Source: Comamonadaceae bacterium
GTDB taxonomy: Bacteria; Pseudomonadota; Gammaproteobacteria; Burkholderiales; Burkholderiaceae_C
Reading direction: 5' to 3'
Assembly: GCA_014190675.1 (NCBI GenBank)
Contig: BJGT01000008.1
Location: forward strand, 1-57,788
Length of the DNA stretch: 57,788 bases
In this document: positions 5,336 to 54,949 of the stretch, in pieces
Position numbering within the stretch: the first letter of the stretch is position 1
How the letters are laid out: every line of letters begins with the position of its first letter
Notes under the pieces: model-generated
Databases searched by the model: none
Told to the model about the DNA's origin: nothing
What the model saw: the letters and a program-made list of their open reading frames with translations, nothing else
Made by a program: the position numbers and the translations under genes

Positions 5336-5367
5336 GAAGGAGTCCGGGTTTGTTGAGATGGCTGGCT

Positions 5368-7431
5368 TCAATTGCGACACAGGCGCTCGGCCATGGCCGT
5401 GGCTTCGGCCGAGGCGGTTACTGATGGCAGCACAGGGGTGGTGCTGGCCTGGGCGACCAAGCGCTGGGCGTCGGCCGGCAACAGCATGCGGCGCACCACT
5501 TCGCGAGATGCTACTTTCTGCACCGTGCACACGTAGCCCTGCTGGTTGCCATAGCGCTCTTCTAGCGACAGGCGCGGGTCACCAATGGCTTGGCGTTCTG
5601 CCTGCGTTCGGGCAAACGCAATATAGCCACCCGTGAGTCCGCCGCCACACGGCTGGCCCTGAAAGAAGCCGCTGCGTGTCACATTCCAGCCGGTGTAGGT
5701 GCCCAACGGAGCCTGGTGCAGCACCGACGCTATACCTGCTGTTTCGTTGCCATCGGCGTTCAGCTTGGGCATCAGCGCGGGCAGGGTCTGGCGGATCGCG
5801 GGAGGCCACTGACTGAGCACGCCTGCGAAGTCATTGGCTTTGAGCATGCTGCCGTAGTCATAGTCCATCAGGCCCACAGCCATCCCGTCGGGTGGCGGTG
5901 CCTTAGGAATGGCGGGCCAGCCCATGGCGGCGGCGTTGTTGGGCACCAGGTCGCCCGCGGCCAGCAGCGGGTAGCCGCTCGGCGGGGGCTCGGTGCCTTG
6001 GGTCACCCACTGCAGCAGGGCTTGCTGCAGCGCAGCCATGGTTTCTTTTTGAGGGTTGGGGTTCTTCGCCAGCACGCAGCTGGAAATGGCCACTGGCGAG
6101 GGGCTGAAGCCGCCCACGTCGTCACCGCCGTGAGTGGTTCCGGGAAAGTAGTAGCGCCGCACGTCGGACGGTAGCGGCAGGTCGGCCTTGCCGTCGGTGC
6201 CAGTGAGGGCAACCGTCATCAGGCGTGCGTTGAATTCGGCGGCACCAAAGGTCTCGAAGATCTTGGGGCAGGTGTTGCTGGCGCGGCAGCGGTCCAGCAT
6301 GCTGGCTGTTGCTCGGCCCCGCGCGGCATCTTGGTAGGGCGTCCACCACAGCACGCCTTCTCCGCCGGGCTCGTAAAGTGTGCCGGAGCCGCTGGGCATA
6401 CCAAAGCGCACATTCACGGCGGTAAGCCGGCCCGCGATGTGCGGGTTGGCGCCGTCAAACACGATGCGCTTCGCCTCGTCCTGGTTAAAGCCCTGCAGCA
6501 GAAAAGTCTTAAGCGCGTTGCCCGACTGCGATGTTCCGTGGCCCAGCGCGTGCTTTATACGCGCTGCCACCGGGTTGGCGGTGCCGGCGTCGTCAGTTGC
6601 TGCGTATCGGAAGAACGAGGCCACGTCGCGAATAGCGGCCAGCCCGATGCCCAGCACCAGCGGGTCTTTAGCAAGGTAGGTCAGCTCGTATAGCAGGGCC
6701 GGGTCAAAGCCGGCTTTCAGGCAAAGCATGCGCGGGTTCGGCGTGCCGGGAAAGGGCGTCTTGCTGCAGTCGGCAAAGGCCCACTCGCCGGCTGGCACAG
6801 TTTGAACGCCCGTTGTTTCGCCCGAACGCTTTTCGGCCTTCTTGGTGATGAGCCGAGCCTGTGTGGTCTCCAGCGACGCAGCGTCATAGGGAATGGCGTT
6901 GGCCAGCATGGCCAGTGTGCGCGAGGTGGTGCCGGCTGGCACGTCTGCCAGGCGAGCCATCACTGTGCCGGTGATGGTTGAGCCATCTGCGTTGCGAGCC
7001 ACCGGCACCTGCACCGTGAAGTTGCTGGCTGTGGGAGCGATATCGCCCTGCCAGCCGTTCACCAGCGTCACATGGCCCTGAGGCGTGATGGAAGGAAAGG
7101 TGCTTATGAGGCCGGCGCGGTTGACCAGCTCGTACCACAGAACGCCGCTGGCCCGGGCCATGTCCAACGGCTTGGACAGCTGGAAGGTGCTGGTGTACTC
7201 CACCAGGCCCGCCGCGTTGCGAGGCGCTAGCTGCAGGTCGGTGATCACCGCGTTGCCTGGCGCGGCGGGGTCCAGCACGCCGAAGGCCCGGCCGCGCAGC
7301 ACCTCGTAGTCACTGCCGTCGGCCAGACGTTCGATCTTGTCAATAACTATGCGGGCCACACGCGCCTGTGTGGCGGGGCTCGCCAGCAGCAGGACTGCAG
7401 CCAGGCAGGGCAGGGCGAAAAGTTGGCGCAC
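5368..7431 (-). CDS. Secreted alpha/beta-hydrolase-domain protein (PF20091-like)
   Basis: A 687-residue exported protein. A GTG start (7431-7429) is preferred over upstream codons because AGGAGA sits eight bases before it, and it gives a clean signal peptide (FALPCLAAVLLLASPATQA). The architecture resembles large Burkholderiales proteins annotated as alpha/beta-hydrolase domain: a beta-rich N-terminal third, then a hydrolase-like part with GHGTSQSGNALK (a candidate GxSxxG nucleophile) and a late FPGTTHGGDD motif. The family has no well-established substrate known to me. The gene is followed at 32 bases by the lipoprotein hydrolase, so the two may act together on an extracellular ester or peptide. 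Confidence 0.6.
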   Translation of the reverse strand: MRQLFALPCLAAVLLLASPATQARVARIVIDKIERLADGSDYEVLRGRAFGVLDPAAPGNAVITDLQLAPRNAAGLVEYTSTFQLSKPLDMARASGVLWYELVNRAGLISTFPSITPQGHVTLVNGWQGDIAPTASNFTVQVPVARNADGSTITGTVMARLADVPAGTTSRTLAMLANAIPYDAASLETTQARLITKKAEKRSGETTGVQTVPAGEWAFADCSKTPFPGTPNPRMLCLKAGFDPALLYELTYLAKDPLVLGIGLAAIRDVASFFRYAATDDAGTANPVAARIKHALGHGTSQSGNALKTFLLQGFNQDEAKRIVFDGANPHIAGRLTAVNVRFGMPSGSGTLYEPGGEGVLWWTPYQDAARGRATASMLDRCRASNTCPKIFETFGAAEFNARLMTVALTGTDGKADLPLPSDVRRYYFPGTTHGGDDVGGFSPSPVAISSCVLAKNPNPQKETMAALQQALLQWVTQGTEPPPSGYPLLAAGDLVPNNAAAMGWPAIPKAPPPDGMAVGLMDYDYGSMLKANDFAGVLSQWPPAIRQTLPALMPKLNADGNETAGIASVLHQAPLGTYTGWNVTRSGFFQGQPCGGGLTGGYIAFARTQAERQAIGDPRLSLEERYGNQQGYVCTVQKVASREVVRRMLLPADAQRLVAQASTTPVLPSVTASAEATAMAERLCRN

Positions 7432-40515: not shown

Positions 40516-41445
40516 TCAAGAAACCGTCTGGTAATACAAGTTTTGCGGGTGTTTGGCTTGAGCAAAGAAAAACCAACGCTCAGCGATCACGCCCGGGGCC
40601 TGCAGCAGGCAGGCCAGCAGCCAGGGCCAGGCCGATTGACTCTGCAAACCCCATATCAGCATCAGCGCGGGCAGCACAAAGGCCAGCAGAACAAAACCCC
40701 ACTTCATATTTTTCAGCAGCAAGCCACTGGCCCCGTGGAAAAATTCTCGGGTATTAAAAGCGCCAGCAGACATGCCCATAGACTTTTGCACCAAGCGCTC
40801 TGCCCTGATGCCTGTGGCCGATTGCAGGCTGGATTGATGCCGCAGTGCGGCGTTGCGCCGCAGTGTGAGGGCCCGGCAAACTCCCGCTGCCAGCGTCACC
40901 CGCAGCGCCCAGGGGCCGGCCAGTGCCAGCAGATCCGTTTGGCCGGTCGCAGTGGCCAAAGCGCAGCCTAGCACCAAGCCCGAAGACAGGCCGATCAACA
41001 AAAAATTGACAACGGTTAGCGGGTGCGACCACTCTTCAATAAAGCGAATGCATGCGTAAATCATGGCGGTGCAGAACCACAACACCAGCGCTCCGCACAG
41101 CACCAGGGCAGACAACCAGGCCGGCACCAGGCCGTTGCCATTGCGCAGCAAGAGCCACCACAGGGCGACCAAGCCGATAAAGGCGGGCAAGACAATCACC
41201 TCGCGCGACATCCAGGAGGTGCGCCACATCAGCACTGCCCGCCAGGCACGCATTTTGTGGCCCAGGTGCGAAAAGGACGCCACCAGGCCGGCCACCAGCA
41301 GTACCTCGCCCAAGCCAACTGCCAGCAACACAAAGCTGTGAGCCATGGGCACGCCTGCGAGCAGGGCAATGGCAAGCATCACCAACAAACCCTGGCCAGT
41401 ACCGGCCAGGGTGGTGAAAAACAGTATCGAAAAAGCGGGATGCAT
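40516..41445 (-). CDS. soeC: Membrane subunit of sulfite dehydrogenase (SoeC, DmsC/NrfD type)
   Basis: A 309-residue polytopic protein with about eight hydrophobic segments, of the DmsC anchor family. It starts MHPAFSILFFTTLAGTGQGL and contains SHLGHKMRAWRAVLMWRTSW, whose His and Arg residues are conserved in quinone-reactive DmsC proteins. It should anchor SoeAB to the cytoplasmic membrane and pass electrons to quinone. It is the last gene of the xsc-pta-soeABC operon, six bases after soeB. By sequence alone it could serve another DMSO-reductase-family enzyme; the xsc context argues for sulfite oxidation. Confidence 0.75.
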   Translation of the reverse strand: MHPAFSILFFTTLAGTGQGLLVMLAIALLAGVPMAHSFVLLAVGLGEVLLVAGLVASFSHLGHKMRAWRAVLMWRTSWMSREVIVLPAFIGLVALWWLLLRNGNGLVPAWLSALVLCGALVLWFCTAMIYACIRFIEEWSHPLTVVNFLLIGLSSGLVLGCALATATGQTDLLALAGPWALRVTLAAGVCRALTLRRNAALRHQSSLQSATGIRAERLVQKSMGMSAGAFNTREFFHGASGLLLKNMKWGFVLLAFVLPALMLIWGLQSQSAWPWLLACLLQAPGVIAERWFFFAQAKHPQNLYYQTVS

Positions 41446-41451
41446 GGTGCT

Positions 41452-42204
41452 TCAGCTCTCCCGTGCCGGCGTGACCCGCCGTGGCAAATACTGGTTGGCA
41501 GGCTGGGTCTCCCACTCTGGCATCAGCGCGTAGCCACCGCGTTCGCGAATGGCTTTGGAGACCTCGGAATCCGGGTCTTTCACGTCGCCAAACAAACGGG
41601 CACCGGTTGGGCAGGCCTTGACGCAGGCCGGCTTGCGGTCCTCCTTGGGCAGGTGCTCGTCGTAGATACGGTCCACGCACAGGGTGCACTTGGTCATCAC
41701 CTGGCGCTCTTCGTCAAGCTCGCGAGCGCCGTAGGGGCAGGCCCAGGCGCAGTACTTGCAGCCGATGCATTTGTCGTAGTCGACCAGCACAATGCCGTCT
41801 TCCTTGCGCTTGTAGCTCGCGCCAGTGGGGCACACCGGCACGCAGGGTGGGTCTTCGCAGTGCAGACAGCTCTTGGGGAAATGGATGGTGTCGGTGCCGG
41901 GGAAGGTACCGGCCTCGTAAGTCTGCACCCGGTTGAAAAAGGTGCCGGTGGGGTTGGCGCCGTAGGCGTTCAGGTCGGCCAGCGGGCCGGCACTGCCCGA
42001 GGTGTTCCACTGTTTGCACGAGGTGACGCAGGCATGGCAGCCCACACACACATTCAGGTCGATCACCAGCGCCAGTTGCTTGGCCAGGGTTTCGCCCGGC
42101 AGCGCGCGCACCGTGGGCGGCGGCGCGGGCGGCAGGGTGCACCCACCAGCCTGAGCATCAGCCACCAGGTTAGATTGCAGCAGATCTTTAAGCCAACGGA
42201 TCAT
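41452..42204 (-). CDS. soeB: Iron-sulfur subunit of sulfite dehydrogenase (SoeB)
   Basis: A 250-residue ferredoxin-like electron-transfer subunit for four [4Fe-4S] clusters. Cysteine groups are visible in CVGCHACVTSCKQWN, CLHCEDPPCVPVCPTGA, CIGCKYCAWACPYGA and, further on, CTLC with CVKACPTGA. It links the molybdopterin subunit to the membrane subunit. Its ATG overlaps the soeA stop by four bases (ATGA), consistent with fixed stoichiometry. No twin-arginine signal is seen, so the complex faces the cytoplasm, as in known SoeABC. Confidence 0.82.
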   Translation of the reverse strand: MIRWLKDLLQSNLVADAQAGGCTLPPAPPPTVRALPGETLAKQLALVIDLNVCVGCHACVTSCKQWNTSGSAGPLADLNAYGANPTGTFFNRVQTYEAGTFPGTDTIHFPKSCLHCEDPPCVPVCPTGASYKRKEDGIVLVDYDKCIGCKYCAWACPYGARELDEERQVMTKCTLCVDRIYDEHLPKEDRKPACVKACPTGARLFGDVKDPDSEVSKAIRERGGYALMPEWETQPANQYLPRRVTPARES

Positions 42205-45149
42205 GATTTTTTACGTCCTGCAAAGTAGGTGAGCACCTGGGCCGCCCGCCCCAGCACGCCGGGCGGTGACGACACTGCGGCGATCTGCGGAAACGATTCG
42301 GCGGCCTCGTCGGGCTCCGCCGGGCGGATGCGCACCCGCACGTCGTACCAGCCGGCCTGGCCGGTGATGGGGTCGGAGTTGCTGATGGTGGTGGCCCCGT
42401 GCGGCCCCTTGAAAGGCAGCTCTTCCGAGATCAAGTGGTTGAGCAAGAAGCCCTTGCGCGCCTCGTCGGCGCCGGGGGCCAGTTGCCAGGCGCCGTCGGC
42501 CTTGCCAATGGCGTTCCAGGTCCAGACCGTGCCCGGCTCCACCGCCTCGGAGTAGCGCAGCATGCAGCGCACCCGGCCCCACTGGCTCTCCACCCAGCAC
42601 CAACCGCCGTCGGCAATACCAGCAGCCTGGGCCGTCAGTGGGTTGACATGCAGGTAGTTGTGGCTGTGAATCTGGCGCAGCCAGGCGTTTTGCGAATCCC
42701 AAGAGTGGTACATGGCCATCGGCCGCTGGGTAATGGCATTGAGCGGGTAGGCCGCCAGGTCGGTGGCAGCCTCTTCAAGCGGCGGGTACCAAAAGGGAAG
42801 CGGGTCAAAGTAGGTGGCAATGCGCTCGCGCAATTCATCGGGCGGCTCCCGGCCACCACTCTTGCCCTGCGCCGCCAGGCGAAAGCTCTGCAGAGTGTCG
42901 GAGTACAGCGCCAGTTGAACCGGGTCGTTCTTTTGGCGCCAGCCCTTCTCCTTTGCAAAGTCCAGGTAAGCCTGGTTCCAGTTGCGCATGTAGTGCATGC
43001 TCTCTGGCATGTGGTACTGGAACACGCAGTTGTTGGCGGCGTAGGCCTCCCACTGCTTGGGATTGGGCTCGCCGCGCAGGTGTTCGTCACCATTTTTGCC
43101 ACGCCAACCCATCAAAAAGCCAATGCCGGGTTGTGGCTGGAAATTCACCACAAAATCCGGGTAGCCGGTGAACTTGGGCGTACCTTCTGCGGTGGTGAAG
43201 GCCGGGAATTTGAGGCGAGTAGCCAGCTCGATCAGCACCTCCTGGAACGGCCGGCACTGCCCTAGCGGCGCCACCACCGGCACCCGCACCGAATCCACCG
43301 GGCCGTCGAACTCGGATATCGGCCGGTCCAGCATGCCCATCACATCATGCCGCTCCAGGTAGGTGGTGTCTGGCAGCACCAGGTCGGCAAAGGCCACGGT
43401 CTCGCTCTGGAAAGCGTCACACACCACCAGGAACGGGATCACGTGCTCGCCAGTCTCGTCCTTGCGGTTGAGCATCTCACGCACCGCCATGGTGTTCATC
43501 GAGCTGTTCCAAGCCATGTTGGCCATGAAGATCAGCAGGGTGTCAATGCGGTAGGGGTCGCCCTTGGCGGCGTTGGTGATCACGTTGTGCATCAGGCCGT
43601 GCGCAGACAGCGGGTGCTCCCAGGAAAACGCGTGGTCGATGCGGATCGGCGTGCCGTCCGGGTTGATGGCCAACTCATCCGGGTGCGCCGGGAAACCCAA
43701 GGGCGCCGCGTTCAACGGGGTGTTGGGTTTGATCAACTCGGGCGCGTTGAAAGCCCGGTAATTGGGCACGATGTGGCGGGGGTACGGCGCCTTGTGCCTG
43801 AAGCCACCCGGCGCATCGATGGTGCCCAGCAGGCTCATCAGCACCGCCAGCGCCCGCACGGTCTGAAAGCCGTTGGAGTGGGCTGCGAGGCCGCGCATGG
43901 CATGAAAGGCCAGCGGCCGCGCCTGGGTGCTGGGGTGTACTTTGCCCCAGGCGTCGGTCCAGGGTATCGGCAGCTCAAAGGCCTGCTTCAAGGCTGCGTC
44001 GCCCATCTCGCGCGCCAACCGGCGGATACGCGCGGCGTCGATGCCGGTGATGGCCGCCGCCCACTCGGGCGTGCAGGGTGCCGCCCGCTCGCGCAGCAAC
44101 TGGAACGAGGGCGCCACCCGGGTACCGTCGGCCAGCGTGTAGTGGCCTTCCAGGGCCGGGTCGCAACCGTCGGCAATGCCCTCGGGGTAGGCGTTTTTGG
44201 CGCTGCCGCTGGGCAGGTCCCACACCAGCTTGTTGTGCGGGTTGCGGCCGTCGCCAGGGGCGCCCCGGGCCGGGTCGGGGTCAAAGGCAAACAGGCCCTC
44301 GCGCGGGCCGTCATCCAGCACCACCAGTTGCGGCGCGTTGGTGAAGCGCTTCAAAAAGGCGTGGTCGATCAGATCCTGCGCGATCAGCTCGTGCAGCAGC
44401 GCCATGAACAGCGCGCCGTCAGTGCCGGGCTTGATCGGAATCCACTCATCGGCAATGGCTGAGTAGCCGGTGCGCACCGGGTTGATGGAGATAAACCGGC
44501 CTCCCGAGCGCTTGAACTTGGAGAGCGCAATCTTCATCGGGTTGCTGTGGTGGTCTTCGGCGGTGCCTATCATCACAAAAAGCTTCGCTCGGTCCAGGTC
44601 GGGGCCGCCAAACTCCCAGAAGCTGCCGCCCACGGTGTAAATCATGCCGGCGGCCATGTTGACCGAGCAAAAGCCACCATGTGCCGCGTAATTGGGGGTG
44701 CCGAATTGGCGCGCAAACAGGCCGGTCAGGGCCTGCATCTGGTCGCGCCCGGTGAACATCGCAAATTTCTTCGGGTCAGTGGCGCGAATCTTGGCCAGCC
44801 GCTCGGTCAGCAGGCTCATGGCCTGGTCCCAGGAGATGGGGTCAAACTCGCCGGCGCCGCGCTCGCTGCCCGGTCGGCGCATCAGCGGCTGCGTCAGACG
44901 CGCTGGCGACACCTGCTTCATGATGCCCGAGGCGCCTTTGGCGCAAATCACACCCTGGTTCAGCGGGTGCGCTGGGTTGCCGTCGATGTAGCGCACCTCG
45001 GGCCCGTTCTCGCCTTTAGCCAAGTGCACCCGGATGCCGCAGCGGCAGGCGCACATGTAGCAGGTGGTGCACTTGACTTCGGTCTGGTCGGTCGGCGTGG
45101 GTGCAGCCAGCGGGTCATGAAGCGGCTCGGGGGAGAGGAATTTGAACAC
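42201..45149 (-). CDS. soeA: Molybdopterin subunit of sulfite dehydrogenase (quinone) (SoeA)
   Basis: A 982-residue molybdoenzyme of the DMSO-reductase family. The N-terminal [4Fe-4S] motif uses Cys30, Cys33, Cys37 and Cys69 (CTTCYMCACRCGI ... GVICAKG). A cysteine at 161 in GGFCSVNMAAG is the likely molybdenum ligand, and the C-terminal molydopterin-binding domain follows from about residue 790. No Tat signal is present, so the active site is cytoplasmic. In Allochromatium and Ruegeria SoeABC oxidises sulfite to sulfate. Here the gene lies 16 bases after pta and just after xsc, whose product is sulfite. Start GTG at 45149 with AAGGAGA upstream. Other DMSO-reductase functions cannot be excluded by sequence alone. 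Confidence 0.8.
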   Translation of the reverse strand: MFKFLSPEPLHDPLAAPTPTDQTEVKCTTCYMCACRCGIRVHLAKGENGPEVRYIDGNPAHPLNQGVICAKGASGIMKQVSPARLTQPLMRRPGSERGAGEFDPISWDQAMSLLTERLAKIRATDPKKFAMFTGRDQMQALTGLFARQFGTPNYAAHGGFCSVNMAAGMIYTVGGSFWEFGGPDLDRAKLFVMIGTAEDHHSNPMKIALSKFKRSGGRFISINPVRTGYSAIADEWIPIKPGTDGALFMALLHELIAQDLIDHAFLKRFTNAPQLVVLDDGPREGLFAFDPDPARGAPGDGRNPHNKLVWDLPSGSAKNAYPEGIADGCDPALEGHYTLADGTRVAPSFQLLRERAAPCTPEWAAAITGIDAARIRRLAREMGDAALKQAFELPIPWTDAWGKVHPSTQARPLAFHAMRGLAAHSNGFQTVRALAVLMSLLGTIDAPGGFRHKAPYPRHIVPNYRAFNAPELIKPNTPLNAAPLGFPAHPDELAINPDGTPIRIDHAFSWEHPLSAHGLMHNVITNAAKGDPYRIDTLLIFMANMAWNSSMNTMAVREMLNRKDETGEHVIPFLVVCDAFQSETVAFADLVLPDTTYLERHDVMGMLDRPISEFDGPVDSVRVPVVAPLGQCRPFQEVLIELATRLKFPAFTTAEGTPKFTGYPDFVVNFQPQPGIGFLMGWRGKNGDEHLRGEPNPKQWEAYAANNCVFQYHMPESMHYMRNWNQAYLDFAKEKGWRQKNDPVQLALYSDTLQSFRLAAQGKSGGREPPDELRERIATYFDPLPFWYPPLEEAATDLAAYPLNAITQRPMAMYHSWDSQNAWLRQIHSHNYLHVNPLTAQAAGIADGGWCWVESQWGRVRCMLRYSEAVEPGTVWTWNAIGKADGAWQLAPGADEARKGFLLNHLISEELPFKGPHGATTISNSDPITGQAGWYDVRVRIRPAEPDEAAESFPQIAAVSSPPGVLGRAAQVLTYFAGRKKS

Positions 45150-45165: not shown

Positions 45166-46116
45166 TCAGCGTGGTTTGGCGGTCAACACCGCCAAGGCCA
45201 CCGAGGCGATACGCGACTGCAATGAGTCAGCGCGCGAGGTCAGCACGATGGGCACGGCCGCACCCAGCACCAGCCCGGCGCAGTCGCCACCGCCAATGTA
45301 ATTGAAACTTTTGTACAGCATGTTGCCGGCGTTCAGGTCAGGCATCAGGAGCAGATCGGCCTGACCTGCCACCCGCGACACCATCTTTTTGATGCGGGCG
45401 GCCTCAGCCGAAATAATGTTGTCAAAGCCGAACGGTCCCTCCACCACCGCACCCGGCCACTCGCCCTGAAGGGACAGCGCCACCAGGGCTTGGGCATCCA
45501 GCGTGGCCGGAATGGCGGGGTTGACAGATTCCACCGCCGCCACGATCCCCACCAGCGGCTCGGCAATGCCGAGTTGCTGCAGCAGCGTGACCGCGTTACC
45601 CACAATATCGCGCTTGGTTTTGAGGTCGGGCGCAATGTTGACCACGCAGTCGGCCAGCGCCAGCAGCTTGGGATAACGCGGCAAGTCGAACACAAAGGCG
45701 TGGCTGATGCGGCGTGGGCCACGCAGGCCGGTGGCCTTGTTGACCACAGCCGACATCAGCTCGTCGGTGTGCAGCGAGCCCTTCATCAGCGCCTGAACGT
45801 CGCCCGCACGCGCCAGGTCACAGGCCCTGGCAGCGGCATCCGACGCAGCCGCTCCCGTGTCGATGATCTCGAAGGCACCAGCGCCCACCCCGGCTTCGGC
45901 AGCCGCGCGAATGATCAACTCACGCGGGCCGATCAGAACCGGGCGCGCCAAGGCAGCACGCTGAATCTGCGCGGCGGCGTCAAGCGCCAATGCGTCGCCG
46001 GGATAGACCAGGGCCAGAGCAGGCAGTTGCCCGGCGGCGCGCTCGCGGGCCCTGGCCACCAACGCACTCAAACGCGGATGGCTGCCCGACACTGCGTCGC
46101 CGTCGGGGTAGGACAT
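45166..46116 (-). CDS. pta: Phosphate acetyltransferase (Pta/Ptb family)
   Basis: A 316-residue enzyme expected to convert acetyl phosphate and CoA to acetyl-CoA. The PTA_PTB fold is indicated by LMKGSLHTDELMSAV, RRISHAFVFDLPRY, LLLMPDLNAGNMLYKS and the late GGGDCAGLVLGAAVPIVLTS block. It is the short, phosphobutyryltransferase-like form. Its location between xsc (26 bases) and soeA (16 bases) makes acetyl phosphate from Xsc the natural substrate. I use the ATG at 46116 with GAGG upstream; a GTG at 46128 is possible. Confidence 0.85.
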   Translation of the reverse strand: MSYPDGDAVSGSHPRLSALVARARERAAGQLPALALVYPGDALALDAAAQIQRAALARPVLIGPRELIIRAAAEAGVGAGAFEIIDTGAAASDAAARACDLARAGDVQALMKGSLHTDELMSAVVNKATGLRGPRRISHAFVFDLPRYPKLLALADCVVNIAPDLKTKRDIVGNAVTLLQQLGIAEPLVGIVAAVESVNPAIPATLDAQALVALSLQGEWPGAVVEGPFGFDNIISAEAARIKKMVSRVAGQADLLLMPDLNAGNMLYKSFNYIGGGDCAGLVLGAAVPIVLTSRADSLQSRIASVALAVLTAKPR

Positions 46117-46142
46117 CGCCGGAGCCACCTCAGCGCCTGGGC

Positions 46143-47948
46143 TTAAACGTAGTCCTTGTACTTATCCAGAAAACGCACCGGCTTGGACAGCGCGTCACGG
46201 CGGAACGGGTCACCCAGCTCACGGGTGCACATGATCTCGATCACCGTCGTCTTGCCGCCGTTCATCTGCGCATCGATCGCCTTCTTCAGGGCTGGGCCCA
46301 CGTCTTCGAGCCGGTCCACGGTGACGCCCTCGGCGCCCATGGCGCGGGCAATACCCGCAAAGCTCTGGTTGTCGAGCTCGCCTGCGACAAAGCGGCGGTT
46401 GTAGAAATCGACCTGGTTTTTCTTCTCGGCGCCCCACTGGCGGTTGTGGAACACGATGGAGGTGACTGGGATGTTGTGGCGCACACAGGTCATGATCTCA
46501 GACATGCTCATGCCCCAGGCACCATCACCGGCGTAAGAGATGGCGGGCCGGTCGGGGGCGGCAACTTTGGCACCAATCATGGTGGGCAAGGCATAGCCGC
46601 AGTTGCCAAAGCTCATGGGTGCGAAGAAGCTGCGCGGCTCTTCAAAGCGCAGGTAGCTATTGGCCACCGAGTTGATGTTGCCGATGTCGGTGGAGACCAT
46701 GGCGCGTGGCGGCATGGCTTTTTCAAGTTCGCGCAGCACCTGGCGCGGGTGCAGCCAGTTACCGGCCTCATTCTTGGCCTCTTCAATCACGTCCAGGCTG
46801 TAGGCATCGCGCTCGTGCGTCCAGTCGTCCAGCTCTTTCTCCCAGGCGGCTTTTTCAGCCGCGATGGTGCCGGCCCGGGCGGCCTTGTTGCCATCGCACA
46901 CCAAAGCCCGGCCCTGCAGGCGCTGCAACATGGCCTTGGCCGATGCTTTTGCATCGCCATGCACACCCACGGTGATCTTCTTGACCAGCCCCAGATTGGT
47001 GTGGTCTGCCTCCACCTGGATGATCTTGGCGTCTTTGGGCCAGTAGTCCAGCCCGTGCTGCGCCAATGTGCCAAACGGCCCCATGCGCGAGCCCAGCGCC
47101 ACCACCACATCGGCCTGGGCGATCAACTTCATGGCCGCTTTGGAACCCTGGTAGCCCAGCGGGCCGCACCACAGTGGGTGGCTGGCCGGGAAAGCATCAT
47201 TGCGCAGGTAACCGGTCACCACTGGCGCACCCAGACGCTCAGCCAGCGCCTGGCATTCGGCCACTGCATCACCCATCACCACCCCGCCACCGGCCAAAAT
47301 GACCGGAAACTTGGCATTGGCCAACAGGTCGGCAGCGGCATTGAGGCTGTTTTCACCGCCGGCACCGCGCTCCACGCGCATCGGCTTGGGGATTTCGCAA
47401 GTGACTTCGCCGTAGAAGTAATCGCGTGGAATATTCAGCTGGGTCGGGCCCATTTCCGACATGGCGCGGTCAAAGCAGCGTGCGGTGTACTCGGCCATGC
47501 GTTTGGGGTTGTTCACATGGCCCTGGTACTTGGTGAACTCCTGGAACATCGGCAGCTGGTTGGCCTCCTGGAAGCCGCCCAGCCCCATGCCCATGGTGCC
47601 GGTCTCGGGCGTGATCATCACCACCGGGCTGTGAGCCCAGTAAGCGGCCGCAATGGCAGTGACGCAGTTGCTGATGCCGGGGCCGTTTTGGCCAATCACC
47701 ACACCGTGGCGGCCGCTGACACGGGCATAGCCGTCGGCCATGTGGCCGGCGCCCTGCTCGTGCACCACCGGGATCAGCTTGATACCGGCCGGGGCAAAAA
47801 TATCCATCGCGTCCATGAAGGCCGAGCCCATGATGCCGAAGATTTCAGTCACGCCATTGGCGGCCATGGTCTCGACAAAAGCCTCGGAGGGCGTCATTTT
47901 TTGTGGTCCGGCGGGCACGGCGGGCTTGCTGGCGGTGGTGTCGTTCAT
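46143..47948 (-). CDS. xsc: Sulfoacetaldehyde acetyltransferase
   Basis: A 601-residue thiamin-diphosphate enzyme that cleaves sulfoacetaldehyde with phosphate to acetyl phosphate and sulfite, the central desulfonation step for taurine, isethionate and related C2 sulfonates. The ThDP glutamate is Glu64 (VVHEQGAGHMADGYARV), and the Mg/diphosphate motif is GDGAWGMSMSEI from about residue 474 with the Asn about 27 later. VNNPKRMAEYTARCFDRAM and PTQLNIPRDYFYGE are typical of Xsc as opposed to acetolactate synthases. AGGAGA lies eight bases before ATG. It is first in the operon; its promoter region is shared with iclR. Confidence 0.93.
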   Translation of the reverse strand: MNDTTASKPAVPAGPQKMTPSEAFVETMAANGVTEIFGIMGSAFMDAMDIFAPAGIKLIPVVHEQGAGHMADGYARVSGRHGVVIGQNGPGISNCVTAIAAAYWAHSPVVMITPETGTMGMGLGGFQEANQLPMFQEFTKYQGHVNNPKRMAEYTARCFDRAMSEMGPTQLNIPRDYFYGEVTCEIPKPMRVERGAGGENSLNAAADLLANAKFPVILAGGGVVMGDAVAECQALAERLGAPVVTGYLRNDAFPASHPLWCGPLGYQGSKAAMKLIAQADVVVALGSRMGPFGTLAQHGLDYWPKDAKIIQVEADHTNLGLVKKITVGVHGDAKASAKAMLQRLQGRALVCDGNKAARAGTIAAEKAAWEKELDDWTHERDAYSLDVIEEAKNEAGNWLHPRQVLRELEKAMPPRAMVSTDIGNINSVANSYLRFEEPRSFFAPMSFGNCGYALPTMIGAKVAAPDRPAISYAGDGAWGMSMSEIMTCVRHNIPVTSIVFHNRQWGAEKKNQVDFYNRRFVAGELDNQSFAGIARAMGAEGVTVDRLEDVGPALKKAIDAQMNGGKTTVIEIMCTRELGDPFRRDALSKPVRFLDKYKDYV

Positions 47949-48078
47949 GGTAAAGATTCTCCTGAAAATCGGCGGTTGGGCCGTGGCTTAGGTCATGGCA
48001 TGCTGCGTCGGATTTTAGGATCAGGTTTTTGCCGGGTCAACCTGAATATCGATAACTAGAACGAAATCGACAATTATT

Positions 48079-48099
48079 TGGAATTTCGATATCATTCCA
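48079..48099. promoter_or_regulatory. Palindrome in the xsc-iclR intergenic region, probable IclR operator
   Basis: Arms TGGAAT (48079-48084) and ATTCCA (48094-48099) are perfect inverted repeats nine bases apart. The pattern resembles operators of IclR-family proteins (TGGAAA-type half-sites). The right arm ends four bases before the iclR ATG, so binding should block the regulator's own transcription or translation start. The remaining 130 bases to xsc hold further partial matches (ATATCGAT at about 48044-48051, its complement at 48086-48093). Confidence 0.6.
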
Positions 48100-48103
48100 T
48101 GCC

Positions 48104-48919
48104 ATGAAAGCCGTGCCCGTACAGAAGCCAGACATCGTCGAAATCAATGGCGATACGCCGACGCTGCGCCTGTTTTCGCTACTTGAAGCCATTGCCGCCA
48201 AAGACCAGCTGTTCTCCTTGCCTGGCCTGGTCGAAGAAACCGCCCTGCCCAAACCCACCCTGCACCGCATGCTGCAGCAGCTTGAAGCCGCTGGCCTGGT
48301 ACAGCGCCAAGGCGACGGCCGGCACTACAGCACCGGGCTGCGCTTGCGCCGGCTGGCCGAGAACCTGCTGCTCAACAACACCTACCACGGCGCCCAGCAT
48401 CTGGTTCTGCGGCATCTGGTGGATGAGTTGGGTGAGAGCTGCAATATCACCGCCCTGGCCGGCAGCGAGGTGATCTACCTGGACCGGGTGGAAACGGCAG
48501 CACCGCTGCGCTTTTACCTGCATCCCGGCTCGCGCGTGCCGGCGCACTGCTCAGCCAGTGGCAAGATGTTCCTGTCCCAAATGAGCCCGGCCCAGCGCCG
48601 GCGCCTGCTGTCCCACGCACCGCTGACCGCTTACACAGGCAAGACCCTGACCGACCCTGACCTGCTCGAAGATGAGCTTAAGCAGGTCAAAAGTCAGGGC
48701 TACGCGCTGGACAACGAAGAGTTTTTGCCCGGCCTCCTGTGCGCTGCGGTGTTGGTGCCCTCCAGCGCCGGCAGGTCCAACCTGTGCGTCGCCGTGCAGG
48801 CGCCGATCATGCGGCTGACCCCCGACAAGGTGCTAACCATGTTGCCCAGCCTGAAGCGGGCGGCGCAGGCGCTGAGCCACATTGAACAGCAAGCCCCACC
48901 CGATGCCGAACGAGGCTGA
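48104..48919 (+). CDS. IclR-family transcriptional regulator
   Basis: A 271-residue regulator. The N-terminal winged helix-turn-helix (about 18-80) includes SLPGLVEETALPKPTLHRML. The C-terminal ligand-binding domain has RVPAHCSASGKMFLSQM, the canonical IclR block containing the effector-site cysteine and serine. It is divergent from xsc and in the same transcript direction as the CobS/CobT-like genes, which begin 33 bases later. It most likely senses a sulfonate, sulfoacetaldehyde or an acetyl intermediate and controls xsc-pta-soeABC; both points are inference from position. Confidence 0.87.
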   Translation: MKAVPVQKPDIVEINGDTPTLRLFSLLEAIAAKDQLFSLPGLVEETALPKPTLHRMLQQLEAAGLVQRQGDGRHYSTGLRLRRLAENLLLNNTYHGAQHLVLRHLVDELGESCNITALAGSEVIYLDRVETAAPLRFYLHPGSRVPAHCSASGKMFLSQMSPAQRRRLLSHAPLTAYTGKTLTDPDLLEDELKQVKSQGYALDNEEFLPGLLCAAVLVPSSAGRSNLCVAVQAPIMRLTPDKVLTMLPSLKRAAQALSHIEQQAPPDAERG

Positions 48920-48952
48920 CGGCCGCATCAACTCCGCACCAGGACCACCACT

Positions 48953-49951
48953 TTGAGCGTCATTTCCCCCGCCCAGCCCGCCCAGCCCAGCCAGCCCGAC
49001 CGCATGGTGTCCGTGCGCGAGGTGTTCGGGATAGACACCAACCTGCGGGTACCGGCTTTCAGCCAGGCTGATGCCCATGTGCCCGAGATCGACAGCGTGT
49101 ACCGCTTCAACCCCGAGGTCACGCTGGCTCTGCTGGCCGGTTTTACGCACAACCGGCGCGTGCTGGTTCAAGGCCTGCACGGTACCGGCAAATCGACCCA
49201 CATCGAGCAGGTGGCGGCGCGGCTGAACTGGCCCTGTGTGCGCGTGAATCTGGACGGCCACATCAGCCGGCTCGACCTGGTGGGGCGTGACACCGTGGTG
49301 CTGCGCGACGGCCAGCAGGTGACCGAGTTCCAGGAGGGCATCGTGCCCTGGGCGCTGCAACGCCCAGTGGCGCTGATTTTTGACGAGTACGACGCCGGCC
49401 GGCCCGATGTGATGTTCGTGATCCAGCGCATCCTGGAGCAGGGCGGCCAGTTCACACTGCTGGACCAAAACCGCGTGCTGCGGCCGCACCCGGGCTTTCG
49501 CCTGTTTGCCACCTCCAACACCGTGGGCCTAGGCAACCTCAACGGCCTGTACCACGGCGCCCAGCGCCTCAACCACGCGCAGATGGACCGCTGGAACATC
49601 GTGGCTGCGCTCAACTACCTGCCGGCCGCCGAAGAAATGGCCATCGTCGCCGCGCGGGTGCCGAGCCTCGCCGGCCCGGCGCGACAAACGCTGCTGGAGG
49701 GAATGGTGGCACTGGCCGATCTCACCCGCAAGGGCTTTGCCGCGGGCGACCTGTCCACATTAATGTCACCGCGTACGGTGATCACCTGGGGCGAGAACAT
49801 CGACATCTTCCAGGACCCTGCCTTGGCGCTGCGCCTGTCATTTCTGAACAAGTGCGACGAGGCCGAACGGCCTCTGGTGGCTGAGTACTACCAGCGCTGT
49901 TTTGGCGCCGAACTGGCCGAATCCCACGCCCTGACCTCTCCACGGCCATGA
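48953..49951 (+). CDS. CobS-like AAA+ ATPase (MoxR-type) without cobalamin context
   Basis: A 332-residue AAA+ protein closely patterned on CobS, the ATPase of aerobic cobaltochelatase. The CobS_N-like [12 protein letters not shown] lies at about 17-28. Walker A is GLHGTGKST (74-82), Walker [10 protein letters not shown] (141-149), and sensor 1 is LFATSNT. CobS and CobT form a chaperone ring that drives Co insertion by CobN, but no cobN or other cob gene is near. A TTG start with AGGA upstream fits; an ATG at 49004 (MVSVREV) is the alternative. It follows iclR by 33 bases and overlaps the next gene (ATGA). A chelatase or enzyme-activation role is inference. Confidence 0.85.
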
Positions 49952-51681
49952 GCGCCCAGGCGGCCCAGCCCGCCCAGGTGCGGCTGCAGCACCAGGTAGA
50001 GGAGCTGTGCGCCGCCAGCATCCGGGCACTCAGCGGCCAACCGGACGTTCACTTCCGTGGCCGCCGGCTGCACCGCGCCGGCGTGGCCTTGCCACTGTTC
50101 GCCCCACACCTGCACCCCACGCTGGACGACGATGACTTTGCCTCGTTTCGCGGCGCGGCCGATGGCCTGGCCCTGAGGTTGCGCTTATCTGAACCGCAAT
50201 TGCATCGCCAACTTTGTCCGCCTGCACCGGTGGAGCGTCTGCTGTTTGAGCTGCTGGAACAGATCCGGGTCGAATCTCAGGTGCCAGCCGGCTTAGGAGG
50301 TGTTGCGGCCAACCTGCATCACAGATTTGAACAGTGGTCACTGGCCTTTCACCGCTCCGGTCTGACCGACAGCATGCGCGGTATCCTGCTGTTCACTGTG
50401 GCGCAAATCTGCCGGGCCCGGGTCACCGGCGAGCCGGTGCTGCATGAAGCCGAGGACCTGATGGAGGCCACCCGCGCCGGGATTGCACCGCTGCTGGGGC
50501 ACGCATTGGCCGGCCTTCGCCGATACCGCCACGACCAAACCGCTTATGCCGTGCACGCGCTAGACCTGGCAAAACTGGTGGCTGATCTGCTGCGCTCCGC
50601 CGAGCCCGAGGGCACGGACGGCGAGCAGGACAAGCCCGGAGAAGAAATGGAGCGCGCGGCATTCAGCCTGATGATGGACTTTGACGCCACGGTAGAAGAC
50701 GGCATTGCCGCCGCCGTGAGCGGGCGCAGTCGGGTGCTGGAAGGCCAGGGCGACGTCTACCGTGTGTTCATCACCGCCTACGACCGTGAAGTGGCTGCCG
50801 GTAGCCTGGTGCGCCCTGCCCTGCTTCGCGAATACCGCGAGCAACTCGATCGCCGAATTGCTGGCCAGGGGGTGAACACTGCGCGGCTGGCACGCGAACT
50901 CAAGCAGCTGCTGGCCCGCCCGGTGCAAGACGGCTGGGACAGCGGCCAAGAAGAAGGCCGCCTGGACGGCCGCCGCATCGCACAGCTGATCGCATCCCCC
51001 ACCGAACGCCGACTGTTCCGCACCGAACGGCTAGAGCCGCAGTCCGACTGTGTGCTGGCCTTTCTGATCGACTGCTCGGGCTCGATGAAACAGCACATCG
51101 AATCGGTGGCCATGCTGGTGGACGTGTTGACCAGGGCCTTGGAACAGGCCGGCGTCACCACTGAGGTCCTGGGGTTCAGCACCAGCGCCTGGCAGGGCGG
51201 CCGCGCTCAGCGCGACTGGTTGCGCCTGGGCAAACCGCAACACCCGGGCCGGCTCAATGAGGTCAGCCACATGGTGTTCAAGAACGCCGACACACCCTGG
51301 CGCCGGGCCCGCCCCGACATCGCCGCACTGCTCAAGCCCGACCTGTTTCGAGAGGGCGTTGACGGCGAGGCCGTGGCATGGGCCTGCAACCGCCTCAAGA
51401 AACGCCCCGAGGCACGACGCATCCTGCTGGTGATCTCCGACGGCTGCCCGATGGACGGCGCCACCCAACTGGCCAACGACGCCCACTACCTCGACAACCA
51501 CCTCAAACAGGTGGTGGCACAGCAGACGCAAAGCGGCGAGGTGGCGGTATTTGGCGTGGGCGTCGGGCTGGACCTGAGCCCGTTTTACCCCCACAACCGG
51601 GCGCTTGACCTGTCCAGCCCCCCGGGCAACAGCGTGTTCCGGGAACTGCTCGGGATGCTGGCGCAGCATCTGCGCTGGTAG
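49948..51681 (+). CDS. CobT-like VWA-domain protein, partner of the CobS-like ATPase
   Basis: A 577-residue protein resembling CobT of aerobic cobaltochelatase. The N-terminal half is helical (CobT N-domain). A short acidic segment at about 220-232 stands where CobT usually has a longer one. The C-terminal von Willebrand A domain has the MIDAS motif DCSGS at 375-379 and a late [10 protein letters not shown] strand. The domain would bind Mg2+ and couple the AAA+ ring to a target protein. The ATG overlaps the CobS-like stop by four bases. With iclR it forms one rightward transcript; 96 bases of convergent space follow, without a clear terminator. Confidence 0.83.
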
Positions 51682-51777: not shown

Positions 51778-52587
51778 CTAATCGAGCAACGGAAACAACG
51801 CGTCATCCATCACCGCCTGATCCGGGAGCCGGTCTGCCAAACCAGCAAAAGGCGGCGAAGTGCGCCAGGGACGCACAGCGTGGCGGGCGTCGTCGCCCAG
51901 GTAGCGCGCTGAAAACACTCGGCGGCGCTGGGTGGGGCCGACGCCGCTGCTGGCGTGCAGCGTCAGCATATGAAAGGCTACCGCATCGCCTGGCTCCAGC
52001 GCCCAGGCCAATTGCCGGTGCTGGGTCGGCTGCGCATCGATGTCAGGCAATTCGGCCAAGCTGCCTTCCGGGAACCACTTGGCCTGCTGCTCGCGAAAGG
52101 TGCGCGGCATGTACCAAGCACCAGCGTGCGAACCGGCCACAAAGCGCAGGGTGCTGGCCAAGGGCACAGGGTCCACCGGCAGCCAGAAACTGACGTTCTG
52201 GCGACCGCTCACGTTGTAGTAGGGCTGGTCCTGGTGCCAGGGCGTCTTTTGGCGGGTGCCGGGCTCCTTCACCAGCAAGTGGTCGTGGTACAGGCGGCAG
52301 GTCTGGCTTTGCATCAGTTGCCGAGCCAAGCGCGGCAGCGCGGAATGCCGTAGCACCGCGGCATAAGCCGGGTTAGTCTGCCAAGTGCAAAAATCTTCCA
52401 CAAACCGACCTGGGTCATCGGCTTGGCTGGCCACCAAAGCCAGCGGGCTCAGATTGGCCAGGTTGTGCTCGATGCCGGCCGTGAGCTGGGTCAGCTCAGC
52501 GGCGTTGAGCAGACCACGGAGCACCACCGCGCCGTCGAGCGCAAACGCCCGGGCGGCCTCGGGTGGTAATTGAAACGAGGCCGTCAT
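51778..52587 (-). CDS. PhyH-family Fe(II)/2-oxoglutarate dioxygenase
   Basis: A 269-residue phytanoyl-CoA-dioxygenase-like enzyme. The facial triad is readable: His118-x-Asp120 in TPWHQDQPYY and a distal His211 in MLTLHASSG, with Arg221-223 following to bind 2-oxoglutarate. WLPVDPVPLASTLRFVAGSH is typical of PhyH proteins. The substrate is unknown. Bacterial relatives hydroxylate small polar molecules, and the xsc context makes a sulfonate or aminoalkyl compound worth testing. The ATG overlaps the stop of the HupE-like gene by one base (TGATG). It is the last gene of the TPR-HupE-PhyH cassette. Confidence 0.82.
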   Translation of the reverse strand: MTASFQLPPEAARAFALDGAVVLRGLLNAAELTQLTAGIEHNLANLSPLALVASQADDPGRFVEDFCTWQTNPAYAAVLRHSALPRLARQLMQSQTCRLYHDHLLVKEPGTRQKTPWHQDQPYYNVSGRQNVSFWLPVDPVPLASTLRFVAGSHAGAWYMPRTFREQQAKWFPEGSLAELPDIDAQPTQHRQLAWALEPGDAVAFHMLTLHASSGVGPTQRRRVFSARYLGDDARHAVRPWRTSPPFAGLADRLPDQAVMDDALFPLLD

Positions 52588-53747
52588 CAAGTCCACCAAA
52601 AAACCGACACATTGAAAGCCCGCTCCACAAACCAGGCCAGGGCCACCAGCAAGGCGGCCAAGGAACCTCCCATCAACACGCCGCGCTGGTAAAACGGCGT
52701 ATGCCGCAGCACAAAAGCCAGCGGCAAAAACACCGCCACGATGGCCAGTTGCCCGAACTCGACGCCCAGGTTGAAGCCCACCAGGCTAACGGCCAGCGCC
52801 CCAGTGGGCAGGCCCAGCTCAGTCAGCACGCTGGCAAAACCGAAGCCGTGAATGAGCCCGAAGAAAAACGCCATCAGCCAGCGCCCTTGCACCATTGGCA
52901 CCAGGTTGTTGGCGGCAGCAAACACCACCGAGCCAGCAATCGCCGACTCCACAAGGCGGCTTGGCAGGCTGATGATCTCCAGGGCAGCCAGCGACAGGGT
53001 GATGGAATGCGCCAAGGTGAAGGCGGTCACGACCGCCAGCACACTCAGGCTCGCGTCTTTAAAACGACTTACCCCGTGCACGCCATCGCCGTGCCCATCT
53101 CTGCGGCGAGGCATCAACACTGCCGGCAAAAGCAATGCGAGCAAGAACAAGATGTGGTCAAAGCCAATCCAGATGTGCCACACGCCCTGCCACAGATACT
53201 GCACAAACTGGGCCCCAACAGTGGTCGCCTCGGCGAACTGCATGACCCCGCTTTGCGGCCCCAGCACCGCACTGTGCGTGGCACCATCCAGATCGAGCTT
53301 GAGCAATCCGCGATGCTGTGCGTCGAGGTCAAACAACAGGCTGTACTGGATGGACAAAGGGCCATGCTGTTGCGGGCAGCGGCCACTCCAGGCCAACACC
53401 GCGTAGCCACCGTCGGTATGCTCGTCGACCTGAAGACTGGCTTGCCCGAGTGTGCAGTTGCCCCCGCGCTGCAAGCTGAGGCGGCTAACAGCCCAGGCCT
53501 GCAGTTCGCGCTCTTTCTGCTGCAACTCCCCCCAGGTGATTTGGTCGTCGCCGTTGGAATCAAGGCCAATGGCGAATTGAATGTCGCGCAGGGCAATGTC
53601 CCACTGCACGTTCACTTGATCGGCCTGGACCTGAACCATCAGGTAACTGTCGCTCGATTTGTGCGCCAGCGCCGCGCCAGCCATCAACACCAGCCAGGCC
53701 ATGGTCAGGGCCCGAGCCACCCATTGGCGCCATGAACGGCGGCTCAA
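52587..53747 (-). CDS. HupE/UreJ-like membrane protein with EF-hand-like loop
   Basis: A 386-residue protein. A signal peptide (ending GAALA) is followed by a periplasmic domain of about 160 residues, then a membrane domain of about seven segments with the HupE/UreJ_2 motif WHIWIGFDHILFLLALLLP and a second histidine in HGFGFASVL. The periplasmic part carries a textbook 12-residue EF-hand loop, DSNGDDQITWGE (63-74), suggesting calcium binding. HupE/UreJ proteins are linked to nickel or cobalt uptake, but this two-domain subgroup is uncharacterised as far as I know. The start overlaps the TPR gene stop (ATGA). Confidence 0.8.
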   Translation of the reverse strand: MSRRSWRQWVARALTMAWLVLMAGAALAHKSSDSYLMVQVQADQVNVQWDIALRDIQFAIGLDSNGDDQITWGELQQKERELQAWAVSRLSLQRGGNCTLGQASLQVDEHTDGGYAVLAWSGRCPQQHGPLSIQYSLLFDLDAQHRGLLKLDLDGATHSAVLGPQSGVMQFAEATTVGAQFVQYLWQGVWHIWIGFDHILFLLALLLPAVLMPRRRDGHGDGVHGVSRFKDASLSVLAVVTAFTLAHSITLSLAALEIISLPSRLVESAIAGSVVFAAANNLVPMVQGRWLMAFFFGLIHGFGFASVLTELGLPTGALAVSLVGFNLGVEFGQLAIVAVFLPLAFVLRHTPFYQRGVLMGGSLAALLVALAWFVERAFNVSVFWWT

Positions 53748-54949
53748 GGGCTGCCCTTGGGTAGCGCGGCCAGCTGCGCCAGTTGCTGGCTGAGCGGTAC
53801 GCCCTGAAACCCACTACTCTTCACCCAGGCTTCGACCTTCTCGGCCGGCGCCCGCTGGCCCGCCGCCAAAGCGGCCTCCAGCAGAATGCGGGCGTCGCGG
53901 GGTTCGCGCTGCACCTCGTAGTTCGCCTGCGCCAGGGCCAGGGCCGAGCCGATATCGCGGCGCAGCTGCAAAGCGTAACGCGCCTCCTCGGCACGGTGGG
54001 TAGTATCACCGCGCAGCCGGGTCGCCGCAAAGCGCTCATCCAGCATTTTTACAAGCGCCGGGGCTTTGGGAGAGCCAGTTTGCTGGTGCGCCAGGGCCAG
54101 ACGCAGCAGGAGCGGGTCTGAAGCCTCATTGCCAGCCAGCAGCGCCACCACCTCTTTGGGGCGTTGCTGGTCAAGCAAGAAGTCGCTCCAGGCCGCCAGC
54201 AAATAAGCATCGGTGAGCCCCAGACGCAAGGCGCTTTTATAGTGGCTTTCTGCCAGCGCCGCCCGGCCCTGCCAAGCCGCAACCTCGGCCAGCCGGGTCA
54301 ATAACCACAAACGGTTGCCGGGGTCGGAAGCCCGGGCCAAGCCTTTTTCAAGCGCCTGGTAGCCCTGCGCCAATTGGCCGGTGTAGGCCAGAGTAAGCCC
54401 CAAGCAGCCCGCTTGCAGGGTTAGCGACCCGGCTGCGCCCAAGGCCGTGCAGGCCTGGCCGGCGCCAGCGTAGTCGGCCTGTACCAAGGCAATGGCGGCG
54501 AGCCAGCCATGCGCCTCCGCAAAATCGGGCTGGGCGGCCAGGGCAGCGCGCAGGTCAAGCTTGGCGTCTTCAAACGCGTGGCGGTATTGACGCAGCAAGC
54601 TACGAACGAACAAGAGCTCGGCAGACAGCGGCGCCGGGTAGCCGTTGATCAGCGCATCGGCGTAGCCCACATAACGCGGGTCGCCATGGGCCATGGCAAG
54701 GTCAAAATACAGTCGAGCCAAAGCCGCCACAGCCTGGGCGTCTTTCGGGGCGCGGTTAACGGCTTGCTGGTATTGCTTGAGCCGGCTGGCATCCGGGTCG
54801 CCAGCCTTGACAGCCAATCGCTCCAGCACCTCGCCGGCGTCACTTGGCGTGCGAGGGGACGGCCAGCCTACGCTGGCAACGCAACAGAAGGCTAACCCGG
54901 TCAACCATCGGGTTAACAGGGCTTTGAGCCACAAACTTATTTCGGGCAT
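53744..54949 (-). CDS. Exported tetratricopeptide-repeat protein
   Basis: A 401-residue protein with an N-terminal hydrophobic segment (LLTRWLTGLAFCCVASVGWP), probably a signal peptide. TPR-like helix pairs follow: AVAALARLYFDLAMAHGDP, AELLFVRSLLRQYRHAFEDA, LLTRLAEVAAWQGRAALAES and AYLLAAWSDFLLDQQRPKEV. It probably forms a periplasmic scaffold. It is the first gene of a coupled three-gene cassette with the HupE-like and PhyH-type proteins; its stop overlaps the next start (ATGA). Function unknown. Confidence 0.75.
   Translation of the reverse strand: MPEISLWLKALLTRWLTGLAFCCVASVGWPSPRTPSDAGEVLERLAVKAGDPDASRLKQYQQAVNRAPKDAQAVAALARLYFDLAMAHGDPRYVGYADALINGYPAPLSAELLFVRSLLRQYRHAFEDAKLDLRAALAAQPDFAEAHGWLAAIALVQADYAGAGQACTALGAAGSLTLQAGCLGLTLAYTGQLAQGYQALEKGLARASDPGNRLWLLTRLAEVAAWQGRAALAESHYKSALRLGLTDAYLLAAWSDFLLDQQRPKEVVALLAGNEASDPLLLRLALAHQQTGSPKAPALVKMLDERFAATRLRGDTTHRAEEARYALQLRRDIGSALALAQANYEVQREPRDARILLEAALAAGQRAPAEKVEAWVKSSGFQGVPLSQQLAQLAALPKGSP

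Follow-up and report, generated by a model that had tools for sequence, protein, structure and literature searches.

A CobS/CobT-like AAA+/VWA gene pair linked to sulfoacetaldehyde acetyltransferase and its possible role in C2-sulfonate degradation

What purpose does a cobaltochelatase-like gene pair serve when it is encoded beside the genes of a sulfonate degradation pathway? This question is raised by positions 48104..51681 of a 57,788-nucleotide stretch of contig BJGT01000008.1 from a Comamonadaceae bacterium (the window, i.e. the whole stretch of DNA that was analysed), where the genes of an IclR-family regulator, a CobS-like AAA+ ATPase and a CobT-like protein with a VWA domain follow each other. 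An earlier interpretation made from the letters alone (the sequence-only reading) had proposed that the pair either activates a local metalloenzyme, such as the molybdoenzyme SoeA or an Fe(II) dioxygenase, or is a relocated cobaltochelatase module. The best explanation, to which we assign a probability of about one half on the basis of sequence comparisons, is that the pair is a specialised CobS/CobT offshoot that serves the sulfoacetaldehyde acetyltransferase (Xsc) step of C2-sulfonate degradation. The argument involves the following features, in which MIDAS stands for metal ion-dependent adhesion site:

48104..48919, plus strand: IclR-family regulator (Pfam IclR_C and HTH_IclR), first gene of the iclR-cobS-cobT unit
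48953..49951, plus strand: CobS-like MoxR-class AAA+ ATPase of the Xsc-linked clade (Pfam CobS_N and AAA_5)
49948..51681, plus strand: CobT-like VWA protein with a MIDAS motif (Pfam CobT and CobT_C)
47949..48103, no strand assigned: divergent intergenic region between xsc and iclR-cobST; each strand has one promoter-like site
46143..47948, minus strand: xsc, sulfoacetaldehyde acetyltransferase (TIGR03457), conserved partner and proposed client
46758..46787, minus strand: Xsc residues 388-397, a clade-specific inserted linker loop with Glu394 and candidate docking site, from the Xsc comparison

The open reading frames agree with the gene order given in the sequence-only reading: iclR, cobS-like and cobT-like genes all lie on the plus strand in that order, with a 33-base gap between the first two and a 4-base overlap between the last two. 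The listed start of the cobS-like gene is a TTG, and the real start is possibly slightly downstream. The unit is divergent from xsc, which lies on the minus strand together with a pta-like gene and SoeCBA-like genes. Judged by consensus matches only, two promoter-like sites were found in a 4-kb stretch in which shuffles let 0.5 be expected, and there is no terminator-like site between iclR and cobS. The term “sulfonate operon” was well chosen, as the Xsc of the window scores 1054.9 bits against TIGR03457 (cut-off 676.4), and a PTA_PTB-family gene and the SoeABC-like genes adjoin.

Evidence that this gene arrangement is not due to chance comes from co-occurrence. Across a sample of 299 genomes from the GTDB family of the host, a CobT-like gene (counted at E <= 1e-100) is found in 31 and xsc (over cut-off) in 33, and all of the 31 genomes with the former also have the latter (Fisher 3.9e-40). 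The gap between cobT and xsc is 1.2-2.6 kb in 30 of these 31 genomes (median 2.0 kb), and in the remaining one, G493, cobS adjoins xsc and cobT is on another contig. When comparisons were made within genera to set shared ancestry aside, the contrasts agreed in 15 of the 15 genera with both states (sign test 3e-5): genomes with cobT have xsc and genomes without cobT lack it, except for G512, which has xsc without the pair. Both counts link the pair genetically to one enzyme gene, whose product would be the client. In a sample of 399 genomes of the order Burkholderiales, the pair accompanies xsc in 12 of 14 genomes with an Xsc of more than 1000 bits (in two of them at 20-30 kb) and in none of 34 with a lower-scoring Xsc; this split was picked after the scores had been seen, and G875 of a further phylum sample exceeds it with an Xsc of 1016 bits (47% identical) that has no pair nearby. 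Dropped from the counts were genomes with weak matches only (14 of 45 in the family and 11 of 25 in the order), two order genomes with other orphan CobST pairs (G083 and G169), and G271, which has a sub-cut-off xsc; G873 of the phylum sample is outside the loci opened. The genome searches score few candidates per genome, and absences hold at that sensitivity, while “nearby” refers to the opened stretches, which reach at most about 10 kb to either side and less far at contig ends. Among 48 clustered loci, xsc was found in 41. The other seven comprise two loci with CobST pairs of other kinds (L053, L054), the contig of G493 that carries cobT (L096), three loci whose xsc is on the same contig at a distance of 20-28 kb (L042, L045 and L016, where L016 and L045 seem to be one and the same contig), and L013, which is considered below; two short contigs that end before xsc (L008, L009) are outside the locus counts. 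The proposed check of co-occurrence with xsc thus ties the pair to this gene, and the idea that an AAA+/VWA pair goes with the local sulfonate pathway is well founded: a functional tie to the Xsc pathway is, in our view, very probable.

The linkage is confined to one type of Xsc. In a tree of 100 Xsc rows, from which the fragment of locus L011 was left out, all pair-bearing rows fall into one clade of 48 (SH-like approximate likelihood ratio test, 100); within this clade, the pair is adjacent in 42 rows, 20-30 kb away on the same contig in two, and none was found in four. Within the opened stretches, no pair accompanies 36 other Burkholderiales Xsc rows, 15 rows from other classes (46-48% identical) or one distant row (L168). 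The pair is therefore restricted, in the samples examined, to genomes with this particular Xsc clade, and these are mostly genomes without CobN. Many of the 36 other Burkholderiales rows have iclR beside xsc, and the four clade members without cobST also have no IclR gene near xsc. In our reading, the simplest history (the root was not inferred) is an old iclR/xsc pair next to which cobST was gained once and lost about three times. The clade is marked by 24 diagnostic columns and by a short loop that is inserted between the central (203-339) and the C-terminal (421-572) thiamine diphosphate (ThDP) domains. Glu394 of this loop is present in 47 of the 48 rows, the exception being the pair-less G512, and the loop may be taken as a hint of a docking site, not as evidence for it. 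Outside the order, a Photobacterium plasmid bears the block, as does G861, which belongs to the same class and another order. A CobS match is present in 17 plasmid records; seven of these are of the xsc-linked type (identity 75% or more), and in all five of the seven that were opened, xsc lies within 4 kb of the pair.

The proteins are recognizable as relatives of the cobaltochelatase subunits, and the two have diverged to different degrees. The CobS-like protein scores 512.8 bits against TIGR01650, under the equivalog cut-off of 558.55, and the CobT-like protein scores 308.3 bits against TIGR01651, far under its cut-off of 759.05. The closest solved structures are the CobS (E 1.7e-139) and the CobT (E 7.4e-79) of cobaltochelatase, respectively. 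The CobS-like protein of the window is 62-69% identical to true CobS, with 69% reached for Sinorhizobium meliloti, whereas the CobT-like protein is only 30-33% identical to three alphaproteobacterial CobT. Walker A and B are intact in 52 of 52 CobS-like rows of the xsc-linked type, and the MIDAS core (D.SGSM) is found in 49 of 52 CobT-like rows (L094, L095 and L101 do not show the pattern), which is the make-up of a MoxR-class AAA+/VWA activator pair. The core reads DCSGSM in these 49 rows and DNSGSM in 4 of 4 alphaproteobacterial CobT. The acidic linker is missing in the CobT-like proteins: the maximal acidic fraction over 60 residues has a median of 0.23 in the 52 rows and of 0.48 in the four alphaproteobacterial ones, from which alone this linker was read as typical of CobT. 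The CobS-like proteins form one clade that is separate from alphaproteobacterial CobS (support 100/99, with seven outgroup rows only). We read the high CobS identity, the low CobT identity and the missing linker as suggesting that the motor was conserved and the client-binding subunit altered.

With respect to cobalamin, it was right that there is no cobN in the 57 kb, and this extends to the whole genome (275 contigs with 3.69 Mb in total and a completeness rating of 100%). Its single PF02514 match, located on a different contig, is a BchH by score (1591 bits against a cut-off of 829) and stays under the CobN cut-off; the gene lies amid crt-, bch- and puh-like frames, named by eye, of a photosynthesis gene cluster. 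CobH/CbiC, the only cobalamin gene besides CobN that was searched for, has no match in the genome either. The genome has a single CobS-like and a single CobT-like gene, and the genome-wide check for a second pair that had been suggested returned only a further weak CobS match (E 6e-4). In the family sample, CobN is over cut-off in 31 of 299 genomes; it is present in 9 and missing in 22 of the 31 genomes with cobST. The cobN genes of all these nine genomes and of four of the 22 pair-less genomes with cobN were opened, and a BchI/ChlI-type ATPase gene follows cobN immediately in 12 of the 13 cases, including all nine genomes with cobST; in the exception, G377, it is 2.2 kb downstream. No CobS or CobT match was found in these 13 stretches. 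ChlI/ChlD have been suggested as substitutes for CobS/CobT in some species (PMC9227772). We therefore regard it as nearly certain that the pair is not a cobalamin motor. As the sources label many such genes cobaltochelatase CobT or cobalt chelatase (NCBI partly “CobT-related”), predictions of B12 synthesis that count them would be wrong.

How could such a pair act? In our best reading, the pair is an AAA+/VWA machine dedicated to remodelling within the Xsc pathway, and no single hypothesis is better than that of an action on Xsc itself, which is about as probable as all others taken together. The CobS-like protein would assemble into a hexamer that is joined by at least one CobT-like subunit, whose VWA domain would dock on Xsc through its MIDAS, possibly via an acidic residue such as Glu394. 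ATP-driven remodelling would open Xsc and thereby either release a dead-end ThDP adduct or an inhibitor, or allow ThDP/Mg2+ to be loaded. The pair may thus be a CobST-derived activase or cofactor-loading chaperone dedicated to Xsc that arose once with one Xsc clade and spread across the Burkholderiales and beyond the order; for this fuller scenario we would put the chances somewhat short of even. To our knowledge, the clients of AAA+/VWA pairs are metal enzymes and Rubisco. If Xsc is indeed the client, this type of activation extends to a ThDP enzyme, the one that catalyses desulfonation in the degradation of taurine, isethionate and sulfoacetate.

Such a mode of action would resemble that of CbbQO on Rubisco or of NorQD on nitric oxide reductase. 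With the CbbQ/CbbO Rubisco activase, the pair shares the combination of a MoxR-class AAA+ protein and a VWA protein encoded with one metabolic enzyme, and also the feature that the pair-associated client enzymes have sequence characteristics that others lack; the Xsc loop with Glu394 is reminiscent of Rubisco, where an acidic residue is engaged by the CbbO MIDAS and where a C-terminal motif is common to the forms with CbbQO (PMC4660213). In contrast to CbbQO, the client would here be a ThDP enzyme, and the sequence match to CbbQ is weak (phmmer E 3e-8). NorQ/NorD likewise combine an AAA+ ring with a VWA partner to remodel a client enzyme, but they insert iron into nitric oxide reductase (PMC13036017), whereas the pair described here has no known transition-metal client. 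With CobNST it shares homologous AAA+ and VWA subunits, adjacent genes, and the Walker and MIDAS motifs; it differs in that neither CobN nor CobH/CbiC was found with it, in the missing acidic linker of CobT, in the variant MIDAS core, in the separate CobS clade and in the linkage to xsc. Searches of an open-access library, which lacks most subscription papers, gave no report that links the pair to Xsc. Only the annotation paper of Ruegeria pomeroyi (PMC4334477) has the term cobalt chelatase alongside sulfonates among the matches listed.

Several observations weigh against Xsc as the client. In four members of the Xsc clade (G415, G512, G142 and G328), no cobST was found, and the pair is thus not indispensable; three of these four retain Glu394. 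Xsc of other clades does without the pair as well. An unusually fast Xsc stem was considered and is unsupported, since the stem branch of the clade (0.39) is no longer than the stems of some other Xsc clades. An inspection of the 24 diagnostic columns by eye revealed no new Cys/His cluster and no sign of a metal site in the clade. At L013, the pair is present and there is no xsc in the 16-kb contig stretch opened. The distance matrices of Xsc and CobT correlate weakly (0.37), whereas the tree-distance correlations among CobS, CobT and IclR are 0.75-0.91 (CobS-CobT 0.89; CobT-IclR 0.85, Pearson over 37 loci), and tree congruence was for this reason dropped as support for an Xsc-CobT interaction. 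These correlations indicate that iclR-cobS-cobT is a cohesive unit and that xsc has a partly separate history. An IclR orthologue (62-95% identical) is found immediately upstream of cobS in 36 of 47 loci.

What alternatives exist to Xsc as the client? The pair could act on another component of the same pathway, i.e. on an upstream dehydrogenase (TauXY, SauS or a choline-dehydrogenase-like enzyme), on a transporter or on the co-encoded IclR. That iclR-cobS-cobT is the tightest unit, and that the IclR gene is missing near xsc in the same four clade members that lack cobST, agrees with this idea. However, the genes that feed sulfoacetaldehyde into the pathway vary by locus, including taurine transport with TauXY-like genes, SauS/SauT-like genes, choline-dehydrogenase-like genes and TRAP-type (tripartite ATP-independent periplasmic) transporters assigned by eye; the TauXY, SauT and isethionate readings are presumptive. 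No upstream enzyme is common to all loci, with TauY-like genes in at least 20, SauS-like genes in at least 6 and choline-dehydrogenase-like genes in at least 9 of 48, and plasmids of Burkholderia, Cupriavidus, Caballeronia and Paraburkholderia have cobST without a close IclR (41-44% only). We consider this alternative unlikely, albeit with a chance that has to be reckoned with.

The pair could also be the motor of the Mg-chelatase, or a chaperone for general stress that is a mere passenger of the operon. BchH is encoded in the genome, as mentioned, and chaperone-like roles have been described for MoxR-class ATPases (PMC3893208). However, BchI is over cut-off on the same contig as BchH and is followed by a BchD-like frame, which gives BchH a motor of its own. 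The agreement of all within-genus contrasts with xsc is not predicted for a passenger. Both variants together appear quite improbable.

A maturation of the sulfite dehydrogenase SoeABC, a molybdoenzyme, is still less probable. The model for this idea is CoxD/CoxE, which are assumed to mature CO dehydrogenase, and soeABC-like genes, for which we presume the Soe names, do lie beside xsc in the window and in some relatives. In the window, the neighbors of xsc are:

45166..46128, minus strand: pta-like gene for a phosphotransacylase in the sulfonate cluster (PTA_PTB; phosphate acetyl/butyryltransferase models match best)
42201..45149, minus strand: SoeA-like molybdopterin oxidoreductase from a profile match, a variable accessory that is not universal
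41452-42204, after the SoeA-like gene: SoeB-like, from the open reading frame call
40516-41445, after the SoeB-like gene: SoeC-like, from the open reading frame call

However, a SoeA homologue (E <= 1e-100) is present in only 21 of 40 genomes with cobST and missing in the other 19; it is also present in 2 of the 4 clade members without cobST and in 0 of 7 controls without either. In six loci from other classes, soeABC-like genes are close to xsc, and cobST is missing from the vicinity. The Fe(II) dioxygenase PhyH fares no better, as it was found next to the pair only in near-identical relatives (L008-L011). Of the proposed action on a local metalloenzyme, the tie to the sulfonate pathway therefore stands and the two named clients do not; the partner that is conserved, the ThDP enzyme Xsc, was not among the candidates.

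Hardly credible, finally, is the relocated cobaltochelatase motor for B12 synthesis, for which the 69% identity to alphaproteobacterial CobS and the likewise cobN-free opened stretches around cobST of Sinorhizobium and Rhizobium plasmids may be cited, but which, unless cobN and the B12 genes escaped the assembly, is refuted for this genome by the missing CobN and CobH/CbiC, the scores of both proteins under the equivalog cut-offs and the missing acidic linker, and elsewhere contradicted by the 22 of 31 cobST genomes without CobN over cut-off and the nine others with a ChlI-type ATPase right after cobN.

The surroundings of the unit differ even between close relatives. Downstream of cobT, the window has PhyH-like, HupE-like and tetratricopeptide repeat-like genes (51778-54949), a block that is kept only in near-identical relatives; in one of these, L010, about 5 kb of other genes separate cobT from phyH, and an acetate kinase gene (5018-6127) is next to xsc where the window has the pta-like gene. 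The photosynthesis gene cluster of the genome (L005 and L006, contig C2) makes it likely that the window comes from an anoxygenic phototroph.

Some of the xsc-linked loci have peculiarities. On plasmid pBPHY01 of Paraburkholderia phymatum (L195), cobST is flanked by two xsc copies, whose products are 81-82% identical to the Xsc of the window. On a plasmid of Cupriavidus sp. EM10 (L191, 10978-12674), the cobT match is in two pieces in different frames, and this copy may be broken or reflect a sequencing error. A plasmid of Caballeronia sp. NK8 (L192, 12610-15227) has a G3E-type GTPase gene (CobW/ZigA-like, below cut-offs) and an amidohydrolase gene, tail to tail with cobT. A contig labelled Actinophytocola (L015) bears the xsc/iclR/cobST block and may be wrongly binned.

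Orphan CobST-like pairs of other kinds also exist. In the locus of G169 (L054, 7211-10110), a third kind is present, with no cobN-like gene (by eye) and no xsc gene in the 20 kb opened. In G083 (L053, 7715-14702), the pair adjoins the alpha, beta and gamma genes of 4-hydroxybenzoyl-CoA reductase (over cut-off), a molybdenum hydroxylase. On plasmid pPO70-1 of Pandoraea oxalativorans (L194, 9373-12817), ureG, cobS and a “cobalt chelatase” gene are consecutive within a urease cluster, which places an orphan CobST beside a nickel enzyme.

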